The notes beneath the pieces were generated by a model. The model worked only from the letters and a program-made list of their open reading frames with translations, searched no databases and was not told the origin of the DNA. This document shows positions 15,725-32,221 of a DNA stretch of 40,309 bases, piece by piece. The DNA lies in the IMG/VR virus record IMGVR_UViG_3300047552_001188, positions 1 to 40,309 of that record; one strand, 5' to 3'. Within the stretch, counting starts at the first letter, position 1, and each line of letters opens with the position of its first letter. Made by a program: the position numbers and the translations under genes. The stretch comes from a virus.

Positions 15725-16378
15725 ATGGCATACTATGATCACATATCATGTTCAAGTGAATGGCAGAAAAAACATAACTACGACAATATTGTGCGTGATG
15801 ATGCGTATTGCGTGAATGGAATACCGGAACCTTCATGGGTTCTTGATGTAGGGGCAAACTTCGGTGTTTTTTCGGCAAGATGTCGTCAGTTATTCGGTAA
15901 AAATCCTTTTATTCTGGCGATAGAGGGCGATTCTGATACTTATAAGCATTTGCTAATAAATTCATTACGGTACGGGTTTGATACCATTTTGGCGCCTATT
16001 GGTTCGCTGGACGGTAAATCTGTGAAAACATATGGTAAAAACAATACAAACAATCCTGGAAGTTGGCAAGTAAAAGAACAAGAAGGACCGTGTAACGGTG
16101 GGTGTACCAGGACACTGGAAAGTTTAATTATAGAATACGGTGTGAATCTTAGCAAGCGTGGGATACTAAAAATTGACTGTGAAGGGTGTGAAAGATATAT
16201 TATATTGAACCTGGATTTAATGCGCTGCATGTGGCAGATATCCATGGAGTATCATTTATTTGACGAGGAAATAAAAGATATAGCCTTATGGTTTCATAAC
16301 GAGATACAGAAAACACACGATGTTATTAGACAGGGAAATGGTAAGATATACGAGTGCGTGTATCGTAAAAGAACTTGA
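15725..16378 (+). CDS. FkbM-family methyltransferase
   Basis: 217 aa. The SAM-binding motif I is WVLDVGANFGVFS (38-50). The acidic AIEGD follows at about 65-69, and the FkbM signature LKIDCEGCE lies at 148-156. FkbM enzymes are O-methyltransferases that usually act on sugar hydroxyls or polyketides; in phage and surface-polysaccharide clusters they methylate glycans. It is one of only two plus-strand genes here, has a GGAGG site five bases before the ATG, and faces the glycosyltransferase/sulfotransferase island, which suggests a shared glycan substrate. Several Cys (GPCNGGC, DCEGCE) are unusual in number. Confidence 0.85.
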   Translation: MAYYDHISCSSEWQKKHNYDNIVRDDAYCVNGIPEPSWVLDVGANFGVFSARCRQLFGKNPFILAIEGDSDTYKHLLINSLRYGFDTILAPIGSLDGKSVKTYGKNNTNNPGSWQVKEQEGPCNGGCTRTLESLIIEYGVNLSKRGILKIDCEGCERYIILNLDLMRCMWQISMEYHLFDEEIKDIALWFHNEIQKTHDVIRQGNGKIYECVYRKRT

Positions 16379-16468: not shown

Positions 16469-17068
16469 ATGAATCGTGTGACTGCTACTATCCTGTCCCT
16501 TGCCCTGGCTGCTTCGGCTGGCTGGGCTGCCGATCCTCCTGAGAAGAAGGATGTCCCCCTGCCTCCAGCCGTGGTGAATGCCGAGAATGCTGCCCTAGCT
16601 GCCGCAGACAAGGCTCGCAGCGTCTATATCAAGGCTATAGAAGCCGAGGTAAAGAAGCTACAGGCGGCTCTGGAGAAGGAGAAGCAGGCTGCTACCAAGG
16701 CAGGAAATCTTGAGCTTGCGCTGGCTATCAAGGCGAAGCAGGAAGCGATGACTGTGGATGCTGTAGTGGCGAAGGGGGCGGAGAGCGGTGGGGATTTGCT
16801 TGGGGAGGGGAAGGTGGATGTGGCTAAGGTGATTGTGGGGAAGTGGGGAAGTGATGGTGTTGTTAGATGGGAATTCTTTTCGGATGGAACAGGAAAGCAT
16901 TTCAATGATAAATTAGTATTTCAAATTAAATATTCCAAAATAGATGGTTCTGACGATTCATATAGCATCATACAAGGAGTTAGTAAACGCGAAATTGTTA
17001 TTACAGGAAAACAGTCCGCTAAGGAAATACTCGGTGGAACGACACGAATTCTAGAACCAATGAAGTGA
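16469..17068 (+). CDS. secreted coiled-coil protein, likely host-derived cargo
   Basis: 199 aa. It starts with a Sec signal peptide (MNRVTATILSLALAASAGWA, probable cut after A20-A21). An Ala/Lys/Glu-rich helical coiled coil follows at about 35-95 (KKLQAALEKEKQAATKAGNL). The C-terminal beta-rich module contains VGKWG and WEFFSDGTG. DNA for roughly the first 125 codons is visibly GC-rich, while the last 75 codons match the AT-rich phage. Such helical-plus-GxW modules recall exported proteins of planctomycetes (recollection, unverified). It has its own promoter, ends two bases from the convergent APS kinase gene, and is probably a moron gene acting in the host envelope. Confidence 0.8.
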   Translation: MNRVTATILSLALAASAGWAADPPEKKDVPLPPAVVNAENAALAAADKARSVYIKAIEAEVKKLQAALEKEKQAATKAGNLELALAIKAKQEAMTVDAVVAKGAESGGDLLGEGKVDVAKVIVGKWGSDGVVRWEFFSDGTGKHFNDKLVFQIKYSKIDGSDDSYSIIQGVSKREIVITGKQSAKEILGGTTRILEPMK

Positions 17069-17070
17069 AA

Positions 17071-17592
17071 TCATATATTGTAATCTGTAAATTCTTCGGG
17101 GAATGCTTTCAACATACACTTTATTGATTCGTCAATTGTCATAATTTCAGTATCAATTGTCAAATCCACGGAAGTTGGTATATCAAATACAGAACCAATT
17201 CCGGTAAAATTTTGTATTTCCCCGTTAATTGCCTTTTTATATAACCCCTTAACATCACGGCGAATGCATTCTTCTACGGAACAATTTAGATAACAAAGTA
17301 ATAAAGAGTCGCCAAGTATATCACGCAACATATTTCTCTGAGAATCTAATGGGGTTATAAATGAGCATATGGTAGAAACTCCGCTACGATTTGCCAACAA
17401 ACATATTTCGGCACATCTTCTTATATTCTCCATTCTATCACCTGGGGAAAAGCCAAGATCCTTACTTATACCATTTCTAAATTCATCACCATCCAATAAC
17501 ATGTATTCCGTGAGATAGTTTTTTTTGATGTAATTAGCAATAGTGGTTTTTCCAGATCCCGATAAACCCATAATCCATATGTTAGTAGGCAT
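17071..17592 (-). CDS. cysC: adenylylsulfate (APS) kinase
   Basis: 173 aa, near the normal CysC length. It shows Walker A GLSGSGKTT (9-17), the APS kinase signature LDGDEFRNGISKDLGFS with GDRMENIRR (33-59), SFITPLDSQRNMLR (77-90) and DVKGLYKKA with a following GIGSVFDIP (113-139). APS kinase phosphorylates adenylylsulfate to PAPS, the sulfate donor for sulfotransferases. A sulfotransferase gene lies three genes upstream in the same unit, so its job is probably to raise PAPS for it. No ATP sulfurylase is present in the window, so APS would come from the host or another phage gene. ATG follows the GT25 stop directly (TAAATG), with GGAG in the upstream gene. Confidence 0.9.
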   Translation of the reverse strand: MPTNIWIMGLSGSGKTTIANYIKKNYLTEYMLLDGDEFRNGISKDLGFSPGDRMENIRRCAEICLLANRSGVSTICSFITPLDSQRNMLRDILGDSLLLCYLNCSVEECIRRDVKGLYKKAINGEIQNFTGIGSVFDIPTSVDLTIDTEIMTIDESIKCMLKAFPEEFTDYNI

Positions 17593-18249
17593 TTAATTAA
17601 CTCCTTTTATTTTGTGATCGAAAGATTTGTTATCAATATTTTTAAAAACACCATTATGTTTTCCATCTTTTCTGAATTTATTAATTATATTTGACATAAA
17701 CGAGCAATTCTGAGCTACTAGATTGGACTTGGTAACAAACATATTGCATGTTTTCACCATACCGGCATACATATCATCAACAGGTTTATTTTTTTTAGTA
17801 ATATTATCTAATACTCGTTTCTTAAAATATGTATTTATTATAAAAAAATGAGCGCCAAAAGTATTTCCCCTCAACCACAAATTATTATCATTTTCTCTTA
17901 CAATTCCTTCTTTCGGGCGATACCCTGAATAATATAGAAACACCATATCCCATTTTAGTTTCTTTAAAGCGTCTTCGTATTCGATACTATGTTTATCAAA
18001 TTCTTCAGTGAAAAAAGCATCATCTTCAATAATAACGGCATGTTTATCATTTGATAGTGACTGATTAATTGCTTTTATGTGACTTTCTGTACATCCTAAT
18101 ACTGGTCTATGTGGGCGATATGATCCTGATACTCTGGTATATGGTATATCATATTTTTTAAGTTGAGAATCAATGAATTTCATTCTGTCAACATCTTTAT
18201 CAAGATTAATAACATATAAACTACATTCGTTTTTCAAAAATTTTATCAT
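17593..18249 (-). CDS. glycosyltransferase family 25
   Basis: 218 aa. It has the GT25 pattern YVINLDKDVDRM (12-23), LGCTESHIKAI (51-61) and VIIEDDAFF (72-80), where EDD is the metal/nucleotide-sugar site. The family includes LPS beta-galactosyltransferases and collagen galactosyltransferases. It lies between the APS kinase and the fucosyltransferase-like gene with an ATGA overlap to the latter, so they are co-translated. The acceptor is unknown: host surface sugar or the phage's collagen-like fibres are both possible. The enzyme class is confident. Confidence 0.88.
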   Translation of the reverse strand: MIKFLKNECSLYVINLDKDVDRMKFIDSQLKKYDIPYTRVSGSYRPHRPVLGCTESHIKAINQSLSNDKHAVIIEDDAFFTEEFDKHSIEYEDALKKLKWDMVFLYYSGYRPKEGIVRENDNNLWLRGNTFGAHFFIINTYFKKRVLDNITKKNKPVDDMYAGMVKTCNMFVTKSNLVAQNCSFMSNIINKFRKDGKHNGVFKNIDNKSFDHKIKGVN

Positions 18250-19049
18250 AATATATTTACCTTATTCCAAGTAACATGAATGTTTGCTGTATTTGGATTA
18301 ATCAAAAGACTGAAACAAGATAAATTTGATCTGGTATGAACTATACTACCACATTCAGCTAAAAGATAGCAATCTAGCATTGCCCCCCATAACTTTTCAT
18401 CTTCAGTAAAATTCTTGCTCATATGAATAGCTATATCTGTTCCTCTTCGAATTCTTTTAATATCTTGTTTGATTATTGGTACTCCAAGATTGGCTTTTTC
18501 AATATACTCAACAAAATCTACTTCATCGGTTGCCAGAAATATCTTATTATAATTACCTAGTTGCGATTTAACTCCCGATAAAAATAAATCATAGTCAATA
18601 TGCTTTCTCCCATAATACTCTTTATACTTGTCAGTTCCCCTATAATGTAAGCCGAGGGTTCTATTATCAATCCCAAGTTGCCGAACCTCATCTTTTAAAC
18701 GACCACTGAAAATACTGTTTTTTATAAAATACTTATTTAAAGTATCTGAATACATTCGGCGGTTTGAGTTAATTAATTCAGTTGCTCCAGTAGTATTTGA
18801 ATACCATCTAGTAGGAGCATCATCTGGAACTTTAGGATTAACAAAAAATATGTCCCATATATTACTTCCATCTGCTTTATATAGTAAGCTGTCCAACTCG
18901 ACATGAGCCTTGACGCTGCCGCGATTGCGATGTGCAATATTAAATCTTTTTAAGATTCCTTGTAAGAAACAAAAAAGCCCAGATTTTAAAAATCCCGGTG
19001 TACCGTCTGGATTTTTTTTCTTCCGAATATTTATTTCAAACGGTGTCAT
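18246..19049 (-). CDS. fucosyltransferase-like GT-B glycosyltransferase
   Basis: 267 aa from the ATG at 19049; a TTG at 19058 is possible but has no better ribosome site. Motifs match the alpha-1,2/1,6 and O-fucosyltransferase superfamily: LGLHYRGTDK (132-141; HxRxTD-like, GDP-fucose binding), IFLATDE (170-176), and DCYLLAECGSIVHTRSNLS (226-244). These enzymes transfer fucose from GDP-fucose; donor specificity cannot be read here. It overlaps the sulfotransferase stop by 14 bases, forming a tight cassette. Confidence 0.78.
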   Translation of the reverse strand: MTPFEINIRKKKNPDGTPGFLKSGLFCFLQGILKRFNIAHRNRGSVKAHVELDSLLYKADGSNIWDIFFVNPKVPDDAPTRWYSNTTGATELINSNRRMYSDTLNKYFIKNSIFSGRLKDEVRQLGIDNRTLGLHYRGTDKYKEYYGRKHIDYDLFLSGVKSQLGNYNKIFLATDEVDFVEYIEKANLGVPIIKQDIKRIRRGTDIAIHMSKNFTEDEKLWGAMLDCYLLAECGSIVHTRSNLSCFSLLINPNTANIHVTWNKVNIL

Positions 19050-19629
19050 ATATTTCAAAGTCCGTCTTATATATTTTATGAATTTTACTTTTCTGTTCCT
19101 CTGTTAAGTCACTAACCTTGAATATCTGTTTAGAGACATTGAATTTATCTATTTCCAAAGGAAAGTCCATGTTATATCTTTCGTTAATCTTTACAACAAT
19201 ATCTGAAAGTGGCTTGTCATATCTATGTATATAATCATGATTGAGTAATCTTATATGTTTAGTCTGATCGCGAAATATAAGATGGTTTCTTCTAATATCT
19301 GGTAAGTTTATAATCAAATCCATATCCAATGCGACATTCTTCTTGGTTTCATGTAGTCCATCTATAAAAGTCTTTTTCGTATCTGGAAAGGTATGTAAGT
19401 GATTGATTGCGCTTACATATCTCTCGTATGGGTGGCGAAGTATAGTAAATATAAAATTATCTGGTGATTCAAATCTTTTATTATCTTTTTGTAAATTGTG
19501 GCGAGTATTCTTAAAATCTATATCCGAGTAATTTCCAGCATCATGAAATTTATCAAGATTATTTCTTAGATGGCGGGCAATTGCCCTACCACCAGTTTTT
19601 GGAATATGGTTAAATAGAATTATATTCAT
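19036..19629 (-). CDS. sulfotransferase, PAPS-dependent
   Basis: 197 aa. The 5'-phosphosulfate loop is HIPKTGGRAIARHL (8-21), and the 3'-phosphate motif is TILRHPYERYVSAI (62-75). These are hallmarks of the sulfotransferase 2/3-type carbohydrate families. It transfers sulfate from PAPS to a hydroxyl, most likely of a glycan. It is short compared with typical 250-300 aa enzymes, but both cofactor motifs are intact. It lies in the same strand run as the APS kinase and two glycosyltransferases, supporting a sugar sulfation route. SD is AAGGAAA before the ATG at 19629. Confidence 0.87.
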   Translation of the reverse strand: MNIILFNHIPKTGGRAIARHLRNNLDKFHDAGNYSDIDFKNTRHNLQKDNKRFESPDNFIFTILRHPYERYVSAINHLHTFPDTKKTFIDGLHETKKNVALDMDLIINLPDIRRNHLIFRDQTKHIRLLNHDYIHRYDKPLSDIVVKINERYNMDFPLEIDKFNVSKQIFKVSDLTEEQKSKIHKIYKTDFEIYDTV

Positions 19630-19641
19630 AGAATATTTTCC

Positions 19642-20781
19642 TTATATTGAGTGTACCATTATTCGTGAATATATCATTCTTCTTAGTTGAAGAAACTTTA
19701 TCATGAGTGGCGAATTTAAAGTAAAGATTTCATTGTTATTGAATGAAACTTCGATATTACTTTGTTTTTCGTTTTTCAAAATATTTCTTTTATTAAAAAA
19801 CAGCCAATTCTTTATGTCATCATCATTATTATTAGTGACCAATATATGATCTCTAAAAATAGGAAAATTTTTAGTTGTATTAGGCATATTCATAATTGGG
19901 CGCACACCTATTATTTTCGAAGACTCCCAGCCATTTGGCATATCTTCAAAATAAGTATCGAATCCGCTAAAAACATTAACATCATCAAAATTACCCCAAT
20001 GTATTTCCGGAAACTTTTTGAATTTGCATTTACTTATATTATTACCAATTTCTGTTCCATGGGAAATAAGTGGTTTGTCGCAAATATTAATTAGCTGATT
20101 TATAAGTGGTCTAATATTTTTATAAAAAAACAATAATTTATTATTAAGTCTTTGATTATTTTTTAATAATACCTTTTCCATATCAACCCATTGACCCCAA
20201 TCGGGGAATCTTAATAATTCCCATCTATCCGAAATAATTAAATTTGAATGTAGAGTTTTATCGTCCGGTGTAGAATGACTATATGTTTCTTCGACTAGGT
20301 GGGGAAAATAGTATCTAACATATGAGTCGTGGTTTGGATATTTTTTTGCAAAATCATGTAAAACACACGATAAAAAGTAGTTAATATAATATTCATTTTG
20401 TTGAATATTAGTTAGTTGTAAATTATTTTCTTTAAACAGAATGAAAGAAACAAATGAAGTCATTAAACCATGAAACACCCCATGTAGATTATCTTTTTCA
20501 AAATTAATAAAATCTTCGTTTGTAGGTTTTGTTTGCCTATGTTCTCTATTATTAATTAATATAGTATTAATAATTCCAGTATGATGTGGATATTTTAAAC
20601 CATATCCTCTATTTTTATTTAGTGAGGAAAAATTATTTTTAAGGTTTTTTGCATATTCCGTTTCATGTGCATCTTGTCCATAATTTATAGTATTTTTACC
20701 TTGGCATCGTAATAATATATACAATGATGTATCAATAAAATCAAATAAATCTTTTTCTAACTCTAAAAATGTTGTATTCAT
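19642..20781 (-). CDS. unknown protein with HD-like metal motif
   Basis: 379 aa, very AT-rich. A helical region at about 100-185 shows H104 (HGVFHGLM), the H142-D143 pair in CVLHDFAK, and D185 in LIISDRW, spaced like HD-superfamily metal-dependent phosphohydrolases. The rest is not recognised; the C-terminal half is Asn/Phe-rich. It shares an ATGA overlap with the four-domain fusion upstream and leads into the sulfotransferase, so it belongs to the glycan island. A nucleotide-sugar or phosphate hydrolase is possible; equally it may be a non-catalytic protein. The motif reading is tentative. Confidence 0.6.
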   Translation of the reverse strand: MNTTFLELEKDLFDFIDTSLYILLRCQGKNTINYGQDAHETEYAKNLKNNFSSLNKNRGYGLKYPHHTGIINTILINNREHRQTKPTNEDFINFEKDNLHGVFHGLMTSFVSFILFKENNLQLTNIQQNEYYINYFLSCVLHDFAKKYPNHDSYVRYYFPHLVEETYSHSTPDDKTLHSNLIISDRWELLRFPDWGQWVDMEKVLLKNNQRLNNKLLFFYKNIRPLINQLINICDKPLISHGTEIGNNISKCKFKKFPEIHWGNFDDVNVFSGFDTYFEDMPNGWESSKIIGVRPIMNMPNTTKNFPIFRDHILVTNNNDDDIKNWLFFNKRNILKNEKQSNIEVSFNNNEIFTLNSPLMIKFLQLRRMIYSRIMVHSI

Positions 20782-23720
20782 TTAAACTCCCTTTTACCTA
20801 TAACGGACCCACCATATCCACATCTAACCAATGGTCTTTTTCCAAGTCCATCAACAACATATTTATGTGAAAATGATGTATAGTCTGTATGATAATATAA
20901 CTTCTTCATGTATGATAAATGATTCTCCCCACTATGCCCTTCAATATATAATACTTTTCCAAGTCTATTTGCAATTGATATCAACGCATCTTTCTCGGAA
21001 AAATTAGAGGTATTCAATATTGAAAGTAAAAACACGGTATCTACTTTTTCTATGGTTCTGAACCAATCGAAATCGTCTATATCTTGTAATCTAGCATCAA
21101 TATTCGAAATATTGTTTTCCGTACAATACTTCTTGATAAAATCTACACTTTCTTTATTGTATTCCAATCCGATGCATTTCTTTGCTCCAACTCCAACCGC
21201 AGATATCATCATACCACCCATCGAACATCCAATATCCAATATTGTTTTGTCTCTGATGTCTTCCACATCAAATTCTTTAATTCTTTCTTCGCAATTTCTT
21301 TTACCGACTGTATTACCTACCTTATGGTAATTGTTATATTCTTTGTTGGTAACTTCTTTTAGTTTCAGTTCACCGGACTCAAAAACCAAATTTGTATGTT
21401 TAGAATAAGACTCAAGATAAACATTACCATCTACCACTATTGTCTTTTGCATATATTTGTTCCAACTTTCACGGTCGAGAACAAAATCGTTATCTTCTGA
21501 CTTATTTCTACGATGAGTGTCAATAAGATAAATGTTACCTGAATTACATTTAATATTACTCAGGTACAAATCAATCTTACGGAATCTATTATCGTCAGAA
21601 ACCAACTTGGTAAATGATTCTATACTTTTCAAGAATACTTCCCGTGATACAGATTTATCATTCTTAATAAATTGTTCTTCTATTATATGGATGTCTCTAT
21701 CATTACACTTGATAATGTTATCTGAAATTCTTTTCGGAAGTTTTATAAAATCCTGTTGGATGTCTATTAGTTGCTTATAATAATCTTCTGTGAAATGATG
21801 ATATATCTTTACCGCAACAGAACCGACTTTAAATGCTCGGCAGGATGTGCCGTAACCTATGTATTCATACTTTCTATGTTCTTTCTTATAGTTTATGCAG
21901 TAATATTTGTTGGCATCAATAAAGAATAGCAATCCATTATTTTCACAGAATTTCCTAACCATTACGTCGTCTGCCTCGGTTCCTCTATTAGTCTGGATAA
22001 AACCACCAACCGATAGATAATTTTTATCTAACAAGTTTAATAATTTTGTAGAACATAAAATCTTCTTATATTTATTTTTTGTCTTCTTTATCTCTGTAAT
22101 ATCCGATTCGACGGAAATATCAATATCATTAATCTCTCTATCCCACCATCTTTCCACTTTGTAGGTATCGTAATTCAGAACATTATCCCAAAACGCCTCT
22201 TTGCTCCTATACACCCACATAGGTATTCTATATCCGGCGGCAATAAAGCATGGTCCTGTTTGTGGCGTTATCAATAAATCTAACTTTCTAACGGTTTCGA
22301 CTATCCAATTTATGTCACCCTTACCCTGTCTCCAATCCTCAACCCCATTTGGAACATACCTATTATCCATGTTTCCAATTGCAACAATCTTATGGTATGG
22401 ATACTTATTGCGAGCCTCTGCAACCATTTCATCAACTATATGGTTAGGTATATCTCCCTGTGTGTTTGCGTGTGTTACCAATCCAATTAACTTTTCGCCT
22501 GTTATTCTCCCACCCTTCATGTGTATATCAAAAGACTTTGGATTTGTTAGTGTTGGGTCCATCCACTTGTAGAATCTCTTGACGCCATTCATATTATCCC
22601 ACTCTTCACGCTTTGGATCCCTACCGGCGTCTATAGCATTTGGTATAGACTCTCTAGGAACCCAATCAACTCCATCAAAATAATCCAATATACCCTTTCG
22701 AGTTTCTTGGAACCAAACCTTCTGCCTCTTTCCGGTTTTAACATACATAAGATGGGCGGCTGCAACAAAACCAATAACATCTCCTAGAAGATTATGTCCG
22801 CTCCAAAACCCACCTTCAAATGATCCGATTTTATTACTTTGATACCAACTAATCATAGCTTTCTTACTTCTCATAGCATGCACAATGCATGGGTTGACAG
22901 GCTTCTTCTCCCCGCTCATATAGTCTTCAAACACCCATTCGTCTCCAGTTGGAATTTTATCCTTCCAATTTCCCGTCCAGTCAGTAACCCACAACCAATT
23001 AGTATTCTCAAATACTCTATCTTCTGGCTTCTGAAGTGTATGTCCAATGTAAGCCAAAGGCGGTTCCTCGGTGAAGCCCTTGTAACCTCTGCGATGTCCC
23101 TCTTCGAAAAACTTTACTCCAAGACGATAAAACTCGTCAACAACACCACGCTCAACAATCCAGAATCCAGCGTTAGTGTTCCATACCTGACCTTTACGAA
23201 CACCCATGTCATTCAACAGCGGACCCCACCTGTCTATTGGACAACTCCACCAATCTTTACGCTTACTACGCTTAGGATCGCAATCGTTTTCCATTTGAAC
23301 AAAGACTCTATTAGTATCAGACATCAAACGTGTCAAGTCACCAGGATCGCGAACAAAGAAGTTATCAGCATCAAAGAAAACATAATAGTCGTAGTTGAGC
23401 TTGCTTACTTCATTCTTCAAGAAATGAAACTTGAACATGTAGAGCTTCTTGTCGAAGTTTCCACATGGATGAACCGTAGCGTCTTCTATTTCAGGTAAGT
23501 CAGTCCAGATGTGGAAGTCAGCAGTTACACCACAATTACGAGCAGACTTGACAGTGGCTTTAGCCATCTCTCCATGTTTACCATCGGCAACCGTCCAATA
23601 ACAAAATGTCTTTTTACCGTTTGTATTGTATGGTTGTAGCTGTGAGATTACTGGCGAAGTATCTCTCTGCGGTATGCTTGAAAAAGTCTTGGTATCGCCC
23701 GTAAGTATCTTGAATGTCAT
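20778..23720 (-). CDS. GT-A / GT9-like / kinase-like / methyltransferase fusion
   Basis: This 980-aa protein has four segments. Residues 35-295 form a GT-A/GT8-like transferase with DxD in FFDADNF (115-121). Residues 395-530 resemble the C-terminal GT-B half of heptosyltransferase-like GT9, with LLITPQTGPCFIAAG (482-496). Residues 615-740 are kinase-like: YIGYGTSCRAF glycine loop, VAVKIY lysine (635-640), and IDLYLSNI...YLIDT (716-734), matching the catalytic D-x4-N and the metal D. Residues 825-980 are a SAM methyltransferase, TILDIGCSMGGM (826-837) then IGLEYN. It plausibly builds, phosphorylates and methylates a glycan. The N-terminal third is less AT-rich. The order of domains is clear; substrates are not. 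Confidence 0.82.
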   Translation of the reverse strand: MTFKILTGDTKTFSSIPQRDTSPVISQLQPYNTNGKKTFCYWTVADGKHGEMAKATVKSARNCGVTADFHIWTDLPEIEDATVHPCGNFDKKLYMFKFHFLKNEVSKLNYDYYVFFDADNFFVRDPGDLTRLMSDTNRVFVQMENDCDPKRSKRKDWWSCPIDRWGPLLNDMGVRKGQVWNTNAGFWIVERGVVDEFYRLGVKFFEEGHRRGYKGFTEEPPLAYIGHTLQKPEDRVFENTNWLWVTDWTGNWKDKIPTGDEWVFEDYMSGEKKPVNPCIVHAMRSKKAMISWYQSNKIGSFEGGFWSGHNLLGDVIGFVAAAHLMYVKTGKRQKVWFQETRKGILDYFDGVDWVPRESIPNAIDAGRDPKREEWDNMNGVKRFYKWMDPTLTNPKSFDIHMKGGRITGEKLIGLVTHANTQGDIPNHIVDEMVAEARNKYPYHKIVAIGNMDNRYVPNGVEDWRQGKGDINWIVETVRKLDLLITPQTGPCFIAAGYRIPMWVYRSKEAFWDNVLNYDTYKVERWWDREINDIDISVESDITEIKKTKNKYKKILCSTKLLNLLDKNYLSVGGFIQTNRGTEADDVMVRKFCENNGLLFFIDANKYYCINYKKEHRKYEYIGYGTSCRAFKVGSVAVKIYHHFTEDYYKQLIDIQQDFIKLPKRISDNIIKCNDRDIHIIEEQFIKNDKSVSREVFLKSIESFTKLVSDDNRFRKIDLYLSNIKCNSGNIYLIDTHRRNKSEDNDFVLDRESWNKYMQKTIVVDGNVYLESYSKHTNLVFESGELKLKEVTNKEYNNYHKVGNTVGKRNCEERIKEFDVEDIRDKTILDIGCSMGGMMISAVGVGAKKCIGLEYNKESVDFIKKYCTENNISNIDARLQDIDDFDWFRTIEKVDTVFLLSILNTSNFSEKDALISIANRLGKVLYIEGHSGENHLSYMKKLYYHTDYTSFSHKYVVDGLGKRPLVRCGYGGSVIGKREFK

Positions 23721-23727
23721 GATACTC

Positions 23728-24597
23728 CTATTCTACCATCAAATCAAAATCCTGTTCGCACTTTTTTGAATTCTTAGCGTCACAGTGTCCGGCAGTCTTG
23801 AACTTGCACCAGTCGCATAGTTTAGTAGGCTTCTTGATCCACTTTTCCTTACTTTCAATCTTTATACCATTCGTCTTCAAAAGCTCAATAGCTTTCTTCA
23901 CACGCTTCTCAGCCCTGGCGGAATCAAACTCTTCAAGCTTCTGATGCTCAATAGCAGCTTCCCCCACTACGCCGTTTTCCAGGCAGATGTTGACAACTTC
24001 TCCCACTACCTCTCTCCCAGCAAGCCACGGCTTTTGAACGCTCTCAATGAGGAACAAATAGAAGCCAATCTGCTCGCTGTGATCCTTTACCTTCTTACCA
24101 CTCTTGAAGTCCATGACAAAGACTTTTCCAGCCAACTCATATAGTCCGTCAAGCTTGCCCTGCAAGTGAATCTTGGTTCCATCAACATCTGCGAAATCGT
24201 AAATGTCAAAACACTTCTCATGAACGAAATTCTCAGCCAGCGGATACCGCTTCGTCAGGTAGTAATGCAGATTCTTCAATGCCTGCGGAATCTTGCTCTT
24301 ATACTCATCATCCAGCTTATCCCAATACTTAGCCCGTAGCTTCTCATTCGTCTGGAAGCACTTAGCCAAGCCCTTGATTTCCTCACCGCCACCACCCTTG
24401 TAGTTTTCGGCAATCAAATGCATTATCTTGCCGAAGGTATTAGCAGGCTTCTCGTCCTTTACCTTTATCTTCTCAATATACTGCAAGAAGTATTGACGAG
24501 GGCATTTCTCCAGCGTGTCAATAGAAGAGGGTGAAAGTGTTATTCCGGGTTTTTGCGGTTTATATTCCCCCTCACTAATAGTGTATTTTTCACTCAT
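23728..24597 (-). CDS. PD-(D/E)XK nuclease with Fe-S cysteines, Cas4/AddB-like
   Basis: 289 aa. It has LSPSSIDTLEKCPRQYFLQY (21-40), H60, GKLDGLYE (147-154), VMDFKSGKK (161-169) and EQIGFYLFL (175-183): the catalytic H, D, D-x-K and Q of the RecB-type family. C32 plus C261-x2-C264-x7-C272 is the four-cysteine layout of AddB/Cas4 iron-sulfur nucleases. In phages such proteins serve recombination, end processing or DNA degradation. No cas1/cas2 or CRISPR array is nearby. The gene is clearly GC-richer than its neighbours, suggesting later arrival, and overlaps the end of the 54-aa gene by 8 bases. Confidence 0.85.
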   Translation of the reverse strand: MSEKYTISEGEYKPQKPGITLSPSSIDTLEKCPRQYFLQYIEKIKVKDEKPANTFGKIMHLIAENYKGGGGEEIKGLAKCFQTNEKLRAKYWDKLDDEYKSKIPQALKNLHYYLTKRYPLAENFVHEKCFDIYDFADVDGTKIHLQGKLDGLYELAGKVFVMDFKSGKKVKDHSEQIGFYLFLIESVQKPWLAGREVVGEVVNICLENGVVGEAAIEHQKLEEFDSARAEKRVKKAIELLKTNGIKIESKEKWIKKPTKLCDWCKFKTAGHCDAKNSKKCEQDFDLMVE

Positions 24598-27810: not shown

Positions 27811-28587
27811 TCACATGTTGAAAACAAATTTAAAATCTTTATTTTTTAAATATTCTTGAGCGGTCATCATACTCTTAGGAGTACCGAGGTCATGCCAAAA
27901 GTTTTTCACGAAAGAAGACCGTAGGGATTTTGAAGAAATAAGTGTATTATGAATATCAACTATTTCCAACTCTTTTCTATCCGAAACAACCAGTGTATCC
28001 GCTATATCATACACGCACTTATCAAATAGATAAAGACCGGTTGATGCATAATTCGATTTTGGGACTTTTGGTTTCTCTTCAATGTCAATAACTTCGTTAT
28101 TATCCATATTGATATGAGCAACACCAAATCTCTCAGGGTCGTCAACTTTTTTAAGAAATATGTGCCCCTTATAGTCACTATTCTTAAATTGCGATATCTC
28201 ATATTCAAAAGAATCTTCAAAAAAGTTATCACCAAGTATAACTGCAAACTTTTCATCGCCAGTAAAAACCTTGGCCAACTTAAGAGCACCTGCAATCCCA
28301 ACTGGTCGTAGAGGGTCGTGCATATTCTGTATTTTATATGTTATGTCAACAGAATCTCCAAACTTTCTACCATCTCCAACCATATCAACCATCATACCCG
28401 CTGCTTCATCGGAAGTTATTATTAGTATTTCATTTATTCCTGATTTTATAAGCGTATTTAGCGCAAAATAAATCATTGGAATAGAACCAATACCGTCTAT
28501 ATAAACGGGCATTAAATGTTTATTAATAACTTTAGAAGCTGGCATCATTCGTTTGGCAAATCCGCCTGCTAATATAACCCCTCGCAT
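27811..28587 (-). CDS. sugar nucleotidyltransferase, RmlA-like
   Basis: 258 aa, near RmlA length (about 290). It has VILAGGFAKRMMP (4-16) and VINKHLMPV (20-28), then VILGDNFF (116-123). PERFGV (151-156) is followed by EEKPKVPKSNYASTGLY (170-186) and FWHDLGTP. These are the nucleotide, metal and sugar-phosphate motifs of glucose-1-phosphate thymidylyl/uridylyltransferases. It makes an NDP-sugar such as dTDP-glucose, a donor for the glycosyltransferases further along the strand. The dTDP-sugar converting enzymes (RmlB/C/D) are absent here. Confidence 0.88.
   Translation of the reverse strand: MRGVILAGGFAKRMMPASKVINKHLMPVYIDGIGSIPMIYFALNTLIKSGINEILIITSDEAAGMMVDMVGDGRKFGDSVDITYKIQNMHDPLRPVGIAGALKLAKVFTGDEKFAVILGDNFFEDSFEYEISQFKNSDYKGHIFLKKVDDPERFGVAHINMDNNEVIDIEEKPKVPKSNYASTGLYLFDKCVYDIADTLVVSDRKELEIVDIHNTLISSKSLRSSFVKNFWHDLGTPKSMMTAQEYLKNKDFKFVFNM

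Positions 28588-29546: not shown

Positions 29547-32221
<2,675 letters not shown>

Follow-up and report, generated by a model that had tools for sequence, protein, structure and literature searches.

A phage operon pairing an APS kinase with a sulfotransferase: a probable glycan-sulfation cassette and a recurrent viral gene arrangement

The 40,309-base IMG/VR virus record IMGVR_UViG_3300047552_001188 (the window, or G000, taken over its whole length and with its coordinates used throughout) carries a minus-strand operon in which a gene for adenylyl-sulfate (APS) kinase stands together with glycosyltransferase genes and a gene for a sulfotransferase that would consume the kinase's product, 3'-phosphoadenylyl sulfate (PAPS). 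We read the operon as a phage glycan-sulfation cassette, in which host APS would be converted to PAPS and PAPS used to sulfate a glycan, and we give this reading a probability of roughly 0.6. The kinase–sulfotransferase pair recurs among phages, and for that reason the reinterpretation of viral cysC is the main point of what follows. Two further records are drawn on: G001, of 51.9 kb, which overlaps the window (100% identity over the 20.5 kb compared) and by its coordinates continues ~17 kb beyond where the window stops on the right, and G002 (locus L003), from a second phage that is a relative of the window phage with the same gene order. All three are fragments, none being complete, and the absences reported for them apply to these stretches only. 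The operon and the block that contains most of it comprise:

17065..22200, no strand: low-GC (guanine plus cytosine) block holding the sulfation cassette, delimited by GC and by identity to L003
17071..17592, minus strand: APS kinase (adenylyl-sulfate kinase, CysC type), 173 amino acids (aa); PF01583, TIGR00455
17593..18249, minus strand: glycosyltransferase family 25 (GT25)-like protein, 218 aa; PF01755, PHROG 2835
18246..19058, minus strand: fucosyltransferase-like protein (GT23/FUT8-like, weak), 270 aa, TTG start
19036..19629, minus strand: predicted PAPS-dependent sulfotransferase (Sulfotransfer_2), 197 aa; PF03567, PHROG 3347
19642..20781, minus strand: 379-aa protein with no family match, under purifying selection relative to L003
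20778..23720, minus strand: 980-aa protein, C-terminal methyltransferase, N-terminal half weakly glycosyltransferase-like
23728..24597, minus strand: PD-(D/E)XK nuclease (PF12705, E 9.9e-26), directly upstream and outside the transferred block

By its family membership the 173-aa protein is unambiguously an APS kinase, with a predicted PAPS-making activity. It matches PF01583 over profile positions 3-152 of 152 (E 6.3e-44, 150.1 bits, cut-off 21.1), passes the cut-off of the NCBIfam apsK equivalog TIGR00455 (155.2 bits against 138.7), and its best solved relatives in the PDB are APS kinases and PAPS synthetases (E 5e-35). The motifs GLSGSGKTT (residues 9-17), LDGDEFR (33-39) and DVKGLYKKA (113-121) are present, and alignment with distant homologues shows that Walker A, DGD, ENIRR (the APS-binding Arg/Asn stretch), the KGLYKKA lid and FTGI are kept, the residue after DGD being E here at a site that varies among homologues. 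The original prediction had named this enzyme from its motifs, and had seen in a non-APS nucleotide kinase family the placement that would tell against it; the protein falls in the APS kinase family, and another type of P-loop kinase is ruled out, all other Pfam and NCBIfam families scoring far lower.

The 197-aa protein is, by family, a full-length PAPS-dependent sulfotransferase, its catalysis being predicted: PF03567 is matched over model positions 11-250 of 252 (E 2.6e-11, 44.6 bits, cut-off 22), and PHROG 3347 (galactose-3-O-sulfotransferase) matches at E 9.3e-7. It has the motifs HIPKTGGRAI and ILRHPYERYVSA, and its two PAPS loops, for the 5'-phosphosulfate and the 3'-phosphate (HIPKTGG and RHPYERYVS), are identical in the second phage. 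The loops are recognisable in the sulfotransferases of the L053 pair and of L020 and looser in those of L064 and L047, with the loop Arg and Ser invariant across the seven aligned rows. The claim that both loops are there is thus borne out, and rather than being lost in all homologues they are kept in the near relative and recognisable in most of the distant phage sulfotransferases. Between the two phages the gene shows 4 nonsynonymous and 10 synonymous changes (P 1.6e-4), the mark of purifying selection. A PDB sequence search gave no trustworthy sulfotransferase relative, the heparan sulfate 6-O-sulfotransferase that came up (E 0.46) matching in just the two loops, and no close relative was found in cellular genomes.

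Between kinase and sulfotransferase the original prediction had placed a GT25 enzyme and a fucosyltransferase. The first stands: PF01755 (Glyco_transf_25) is matched above its cut-off of 24 (42.6 bits, E 8.3e-11), in part only (positions 68-119 of 199), and PHROG 2835, a glucosyltransferase, matches at E 7e-14. The second is plausible at most as a weakly supported assignment; one match, to FUT8_N_cat over the catalytic part, is below threshold (E 0.057, 12.6 bits, cut-off 27.6), and an HYRGTDK motif is present.

All four genes lie on the minus strand with the motifs described for them, and they are part of something larger. Seven minus-strand genes run head to tail, with no notable gaps, from 24597 down to 17071, in the order PD-(D/E)XK nuclease, 980-aa protein, 379-aa protein, sulfotransferase, fucosyltransferase-like protein, GT25 and, last, APS kinase. 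The kinase and GT25 genes abut (0 nt); GT25 overlaps the fucosyltransferase-like gene by 4 nt, and this in turn overlaps the sulfotransferase gene by 23 nt if counted from the TTG start, or by 14 nt from the ATG at codon 4. Further upstream the sulfotransferase gene begins 12 nt behind the 379-aa gene, which overlaps the 980-aa gene by 4 nt, and the latter lies 7 nt behind the nuclease gene. A compact unit with overlapping genes had been rightly perceived in so far as this is one co-directional operon with glycosyltransferase; the three further genes upstream had been missed. The 980-aa protein has a Methyltransf_31 match (E 2.9e-8, residues 824-922) and, at its N-terminus, a weak one to Glyco_tranf_2_4 (E 0.04); its gene is under purifying selection relative to the second phage (P 4e-54). 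The same is true of the 379-aa gene (9 nonsynonymous and 13 synonymous changes, P 2.9e-4), whose product is without a match in Pfam, PHROG, NCBIfam or the PDB.

Relative to the phage backbone, the cassette has moved between phages as one unit. This follows from its low GC content, 30.4% where the flanks have 39.5% and 39.0%, and from its identity to the second phage, ~94-99% at the nucleotide level in the alignment from ~22.1 kb to 17.065 kb while the flanks are mostly ~65-80% identical (the nuclease gene 74.9%). On one side the block ends together with the APS kinase gene, on the other within the 980-aa gene at ~22.1-22.2 kb; along that gene nucleotide identity is mostly 79-96% over the first half and steps, from mostly 79-92%, to 94-98%, and GC is 42% in the N-terminal half and 32% in the C-terminal part.

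How often does an APS kinase keep such company in viruses? A profile search of viral contigs yielded 62 APS kinase loci, which form 44 clusters at 90% identity, and sulfotransferases of three families were sought across the full length of the records. A sulfotransferase is present on 15 of the 44 contigs. It lies on the same strand and no more than 2 kb from the kinase in seven of the 44 clusters, against 0.57 expected from random placement (0 of 20,000 trials being as high), and no more than 5 kb away in nine, against 1.2. The pairing of an APS kinase with its consumer in a phage had been thought unusual; this is contradicted, since the pair recurs in at least 7-9 of the 44 clusters, far above random. 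A maximum-likelihood tree that includes 35 cellular kinases puts the sulfotransferase-linked viral kinases in about six places; viral kinases cluster while tracing to several origins (10 label changes, 26 on shuffling), and the window kinase forms a long branch whose position is uncertain. Neighbours on the linked contigs include genes for phage DNA polymerase, PhoH, tail fibre, SbcC-like, thymidylate synthase-related or endolysin proteins. A terminase (phrog_2) was found in 19 of the 50 surveyed records, and for the others viral origin therefore rests on the IMG/VR assignment and on phage genes nearby.

The gene content around the pair differs from contig to contig. Phage contig L020 has in a row GT25, Sulfotransfer_2, a GT10 fucosyltransferase, an FkbM methyltransferase and APS kinase, with a nucleotidyltransferase-like domain as a separate gene just behind the kinase; the same domain is fused C-terminally to the kinase in a 349-aa open reading frame in L041, L044 and L045. 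On a 160-kb viral contig (L059:6334-11280) a sulfotransferase and a glycosyltransferase-like gene stand in a row with CysD, CysNC and a TauE-type transporter, a full PAPS-making set. In another phage contig (L064:9019-13096) a PHO4-family transporter, possibly carrying sulfate, adjoins APS kinase, methyltransferase, glycosyltransferase and sulfotransferase genes. At L058:7391-10513 genes for a Sulfotransfer_2 protein and APS kinase come after an endolysin and a spanin-like gene, and this moron-like placement suggests lysogenic conversion. The terminase frames of two surveyed records have in-frame TGA codons (six, plus other stops, in G019; two in G024), these being perhaps recoded phages or decayed terminase genes. 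'Pseudomonas phage Y4' and two gut 'Bacteriophage sp.' scaffolds were rejected as phage, their gene content being bacterial-looking, and were left out of the survey, their kinases being kept in the search alignment; the first (OQ572406.1, unverified) has an APS kinase beside a sulfotransferase-like gene, together with a histidine kinase and glycosyltransferases.

Several features outside the operon are pertinent to what the cassette may do:

15725..16378, plus strand: FkbM-family methyltransferase (TIGR01444 E 7.8e-14; PF05050 E 2.6e-8), facing the operon
27811..28587, minus strand: sugar-nucleotide pyrophosphorylase-like nucleotidyltransferase (PF00483 E 5.4e-49), upstream of the operon
29547..32198, minus strand: tail fibre with collagen-like G-x-T repeats (Collagen E 2e-14; PHROG tail fibre families)

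FkbM-family methyltransferases are typical genes of glycan O-methylation. The tail fibre has 32 GxT within 160 residues, and the window's other contractile-tail genes specify a gp25-type baseplate wedge protein and a gp5-type OB/trimerisation protein; with these three a bacterial contig mistaken for phage is ruled out. Convergent with the APS kinase gene, at 16469-17068 on the plus strand, is a gene for a 199-aa secreted-looking protein, of 50% GC and absent from the second phage, which looks like a separate recent insertion. On G001, ~6.7 kb beyond the window's right end, the same phage encodes an 805-aa protein (L070:7244-9661) with Ser runs of 58 and 221, specified by mixed AGC/AGT/TCN codons with no simple DNA repeat. 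A phage protein of 230 aa (L070:4789-5481) has HIGH- and KSKS-like motifs and matches class I Glu/Gln tRNA synthetases over a short stretch.

The original prediction saw no ATP sulfurylase, and that holds in a PF01747 search of the window, G001 and G002, none being found in any of the three fragments; APS would therefore have to come from the ATP sulfurylase of the host. Nor was a member of the CysD/PAPS reductase (CysH) family (PF01507) found in them, or a linked cysDNC/cysH set for assimilatory sulfate reduction. In the mechanism we envisage, the host enzyme would supply APS, the phage kinase with ATP would convert it to PAPS, and the phage sulfotransferase would pass the sulfuryl group from PAPS to a hydroxyl of a glycan built by the GT25 and fucosyltransferase-like enzymes and perhaps capped by the methyltransferases of the cassette. 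Catalytic activity, the use of host APS and a glycan as acceptor are what we infer here. In cells without sulfated products PAPS is only a transient intermediate of assimilation, and some hosts make none; a kinase of its own would let the phage raise the PAPS level. A glycan is favoured as the acceptor by the presence in the window of GT25, the FkbM methyltransferase and the sugar-nucleotide pyrophosphorylase, and the reading as a whole by the families to which kinase and sulfotransferase belong, the co-directional operon, the recurrence of the pair in other phages, the block shared with the second phage and the purifying selection on the sulfotransferase. In bacteria, O-glycans are known to be attached to Thr of collagen-like repeats and to Ser tracts, and the most likely candidates for decoration are virion surface proteins (the Thr-rich collagen-like fibre and the protein with the 221-Ser run) and then a host surface glycan.

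Not all of the evidence points this way. Between the two phages the APS kinase, GT25 and fucosyltransferase-like genes, with too few changes or a neutral look, give no sign of purifying selection (P within 0.3-1.0), and in the second phage the frame of the last is broken by a one-base deletion at a T run. The frameshift is possibly a sequence error; together with the neutral-looking genes it is a real caveat on function in that phage. Structure models were too poor to use both for the fucosyltransferase-like protein (single sequence; predicted local distance difference test, pLDDT, 35) and for the sulfotransferase (seven-row alignment; pLDDT 37). In the survey no sulfotransferase was detected on the contig for 29 of the 44 viral kinase clusters, so the pairing is frequent, not general.

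If sulfation is the outcome, might it be the host that is decorated? Sulfation of a host surface polysaccharide could mask the receptor from other phages, as lysogenic conversion or superinfection exclusion. The lysis-adjacent pair of L058 is in a classic moron position, and Pfam describes GT25 as a family of lipopolysaccharide biosynthesis; however, the cassette genes include no recognised flippase, polymerase or membrane-anchored glycosyltransferase, contractile-tail genes are present in the window, and none of the genes examined was recognised as an integrase. We consider this unlikely.

Less probable still, though it has the literature with it, is that the kinase is an ordinary auxiliary metabolic gene of sulfate assimilation, speeding host cysteine synthesis, with the adjacency of the sulfotransferase incidental. 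Phage cysC has been read as assimilatory sulfate reduction both in the COBRA paper, with its 62 cysC and 167 cysH phage genes (PMC10914622), and in a Challenger Deep survey (PMC9529941). Yet, besides the lack of PAPS reductase/CysD family genes in the three fragments, of 50 viral records with an APS kinase just 3 hold a member of that family and none a Sat-type ATP sulfurylase. CysD is the usual cellular neighbour of APS kinase. It was near 63 of 80 sampled cellular kinases against two of 44 viral ones, an approximate contrast, since the flanks searched were not of equal length in the two sets and both were limited by contig ends. Its rarity near viral kinases, with the 3 of 50, fits a PAPS sink other than reduction. 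Adjacency to a sulfotransferase far above random placement also speaks against mere incidence, as does a kinase that sits in a glycosyltransferase operon and travels with the sulfotransferase as one block.

A very improbable third alternative is DNA hypermodification, with glycosyltransferases and sulfotransferase decorating modified phage bases against restriction, a scheme put forward for phages by Iyer et al. 2013 (as cited in PMC10829341). It is disfavoured because no thymidylate-synthase-type base hydroxymethylase is present in the three fragments; also, the proteins searched gave no match to a TET/JBP dioxygenase family, and the FkbM methyltransferase, GT25 and sugar-nucleotide pyrophosphorylase indicate glycan chemistry.

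For glycan sulfation there are precedents to compare. Rhizobial NodPQ, NodH and NodZ serve sulfation and fucosylation of Nod factor. There the C-terminal APS kinase domain of NodQ feeds PAPS to a dedicated sulfotransferase, NodH, beside glycan-decorating enzymes, and NodZ belongs to the GT23 fucosyltransferases, which the FUT8-like protein of the window resembles. NodPQ differs in containing ATP sulfurylase, and a complete nodPQ-like set was rejected for the phage fragments, where none was found; the window unit, moreover, is phage-borne. The sulfated capsule clusters of Vibrio sp. KMM 8419 (PMC11641403) and Cobetia marina KMM 1449 (PMC11766843), going by the abstracts of the two papers, likewise combine glycosyltransferases, a sulfotransferase and PAPS-forming genes, but are chromosomal with a known capsule product, whereas the phage block spans 5 kb and has no recognised export genes. 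The phage cysC auxiliary genes reported before (PMC10914622, PMC9529941) are also phage APS kinases; here the gene is operon-linked to a sulfotransferase. Phage-encoded, PAPS-dependent sulfotransferases, as in the OM43 phages and PHROG 3347, are in the excerpted paper of unclear function in phages and described without a linked APS kinase (PMC10580990), whereas the window links the donor-making enzyme. Mycobacteriophages provide the likeness of phage glycosyltransferases decorating virion proteins (Freeman et al. 2023, cited in PMC12619734), in that source's partial account without sulfation. A literature search, with most subscription papers outside its reach, found no paper joining a phage APS kinase with a sulfotransferase.

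Phage cysC is one of the auxiliary metabolic genes cited for viral steering of sulfate assimilation. We would give even odds that many phages couple the supply of sulfate donor, by APS kinase or, as in L059, by a whole CysD-CysNC set, to sulfotransferases in mobile glycan cassettes that make sulfated glycans on virions or hosts, and that a good share of the phage cysC genes now assigned to assimilatory sulfate reduction serve sulfation. Should a good share of the kinases feed sulfotransferases instead, the assimilation reading of viral cysC needs correction, and it becomes a testable question whether sulfated sugars of a heparin-like or fucan-like kind are built by phages on virions or hosts, for which the transferred block provides a compact, expressible unit. 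Sulfate groups so placed would alter charge, adsorption, restriction or enzymatic attack.

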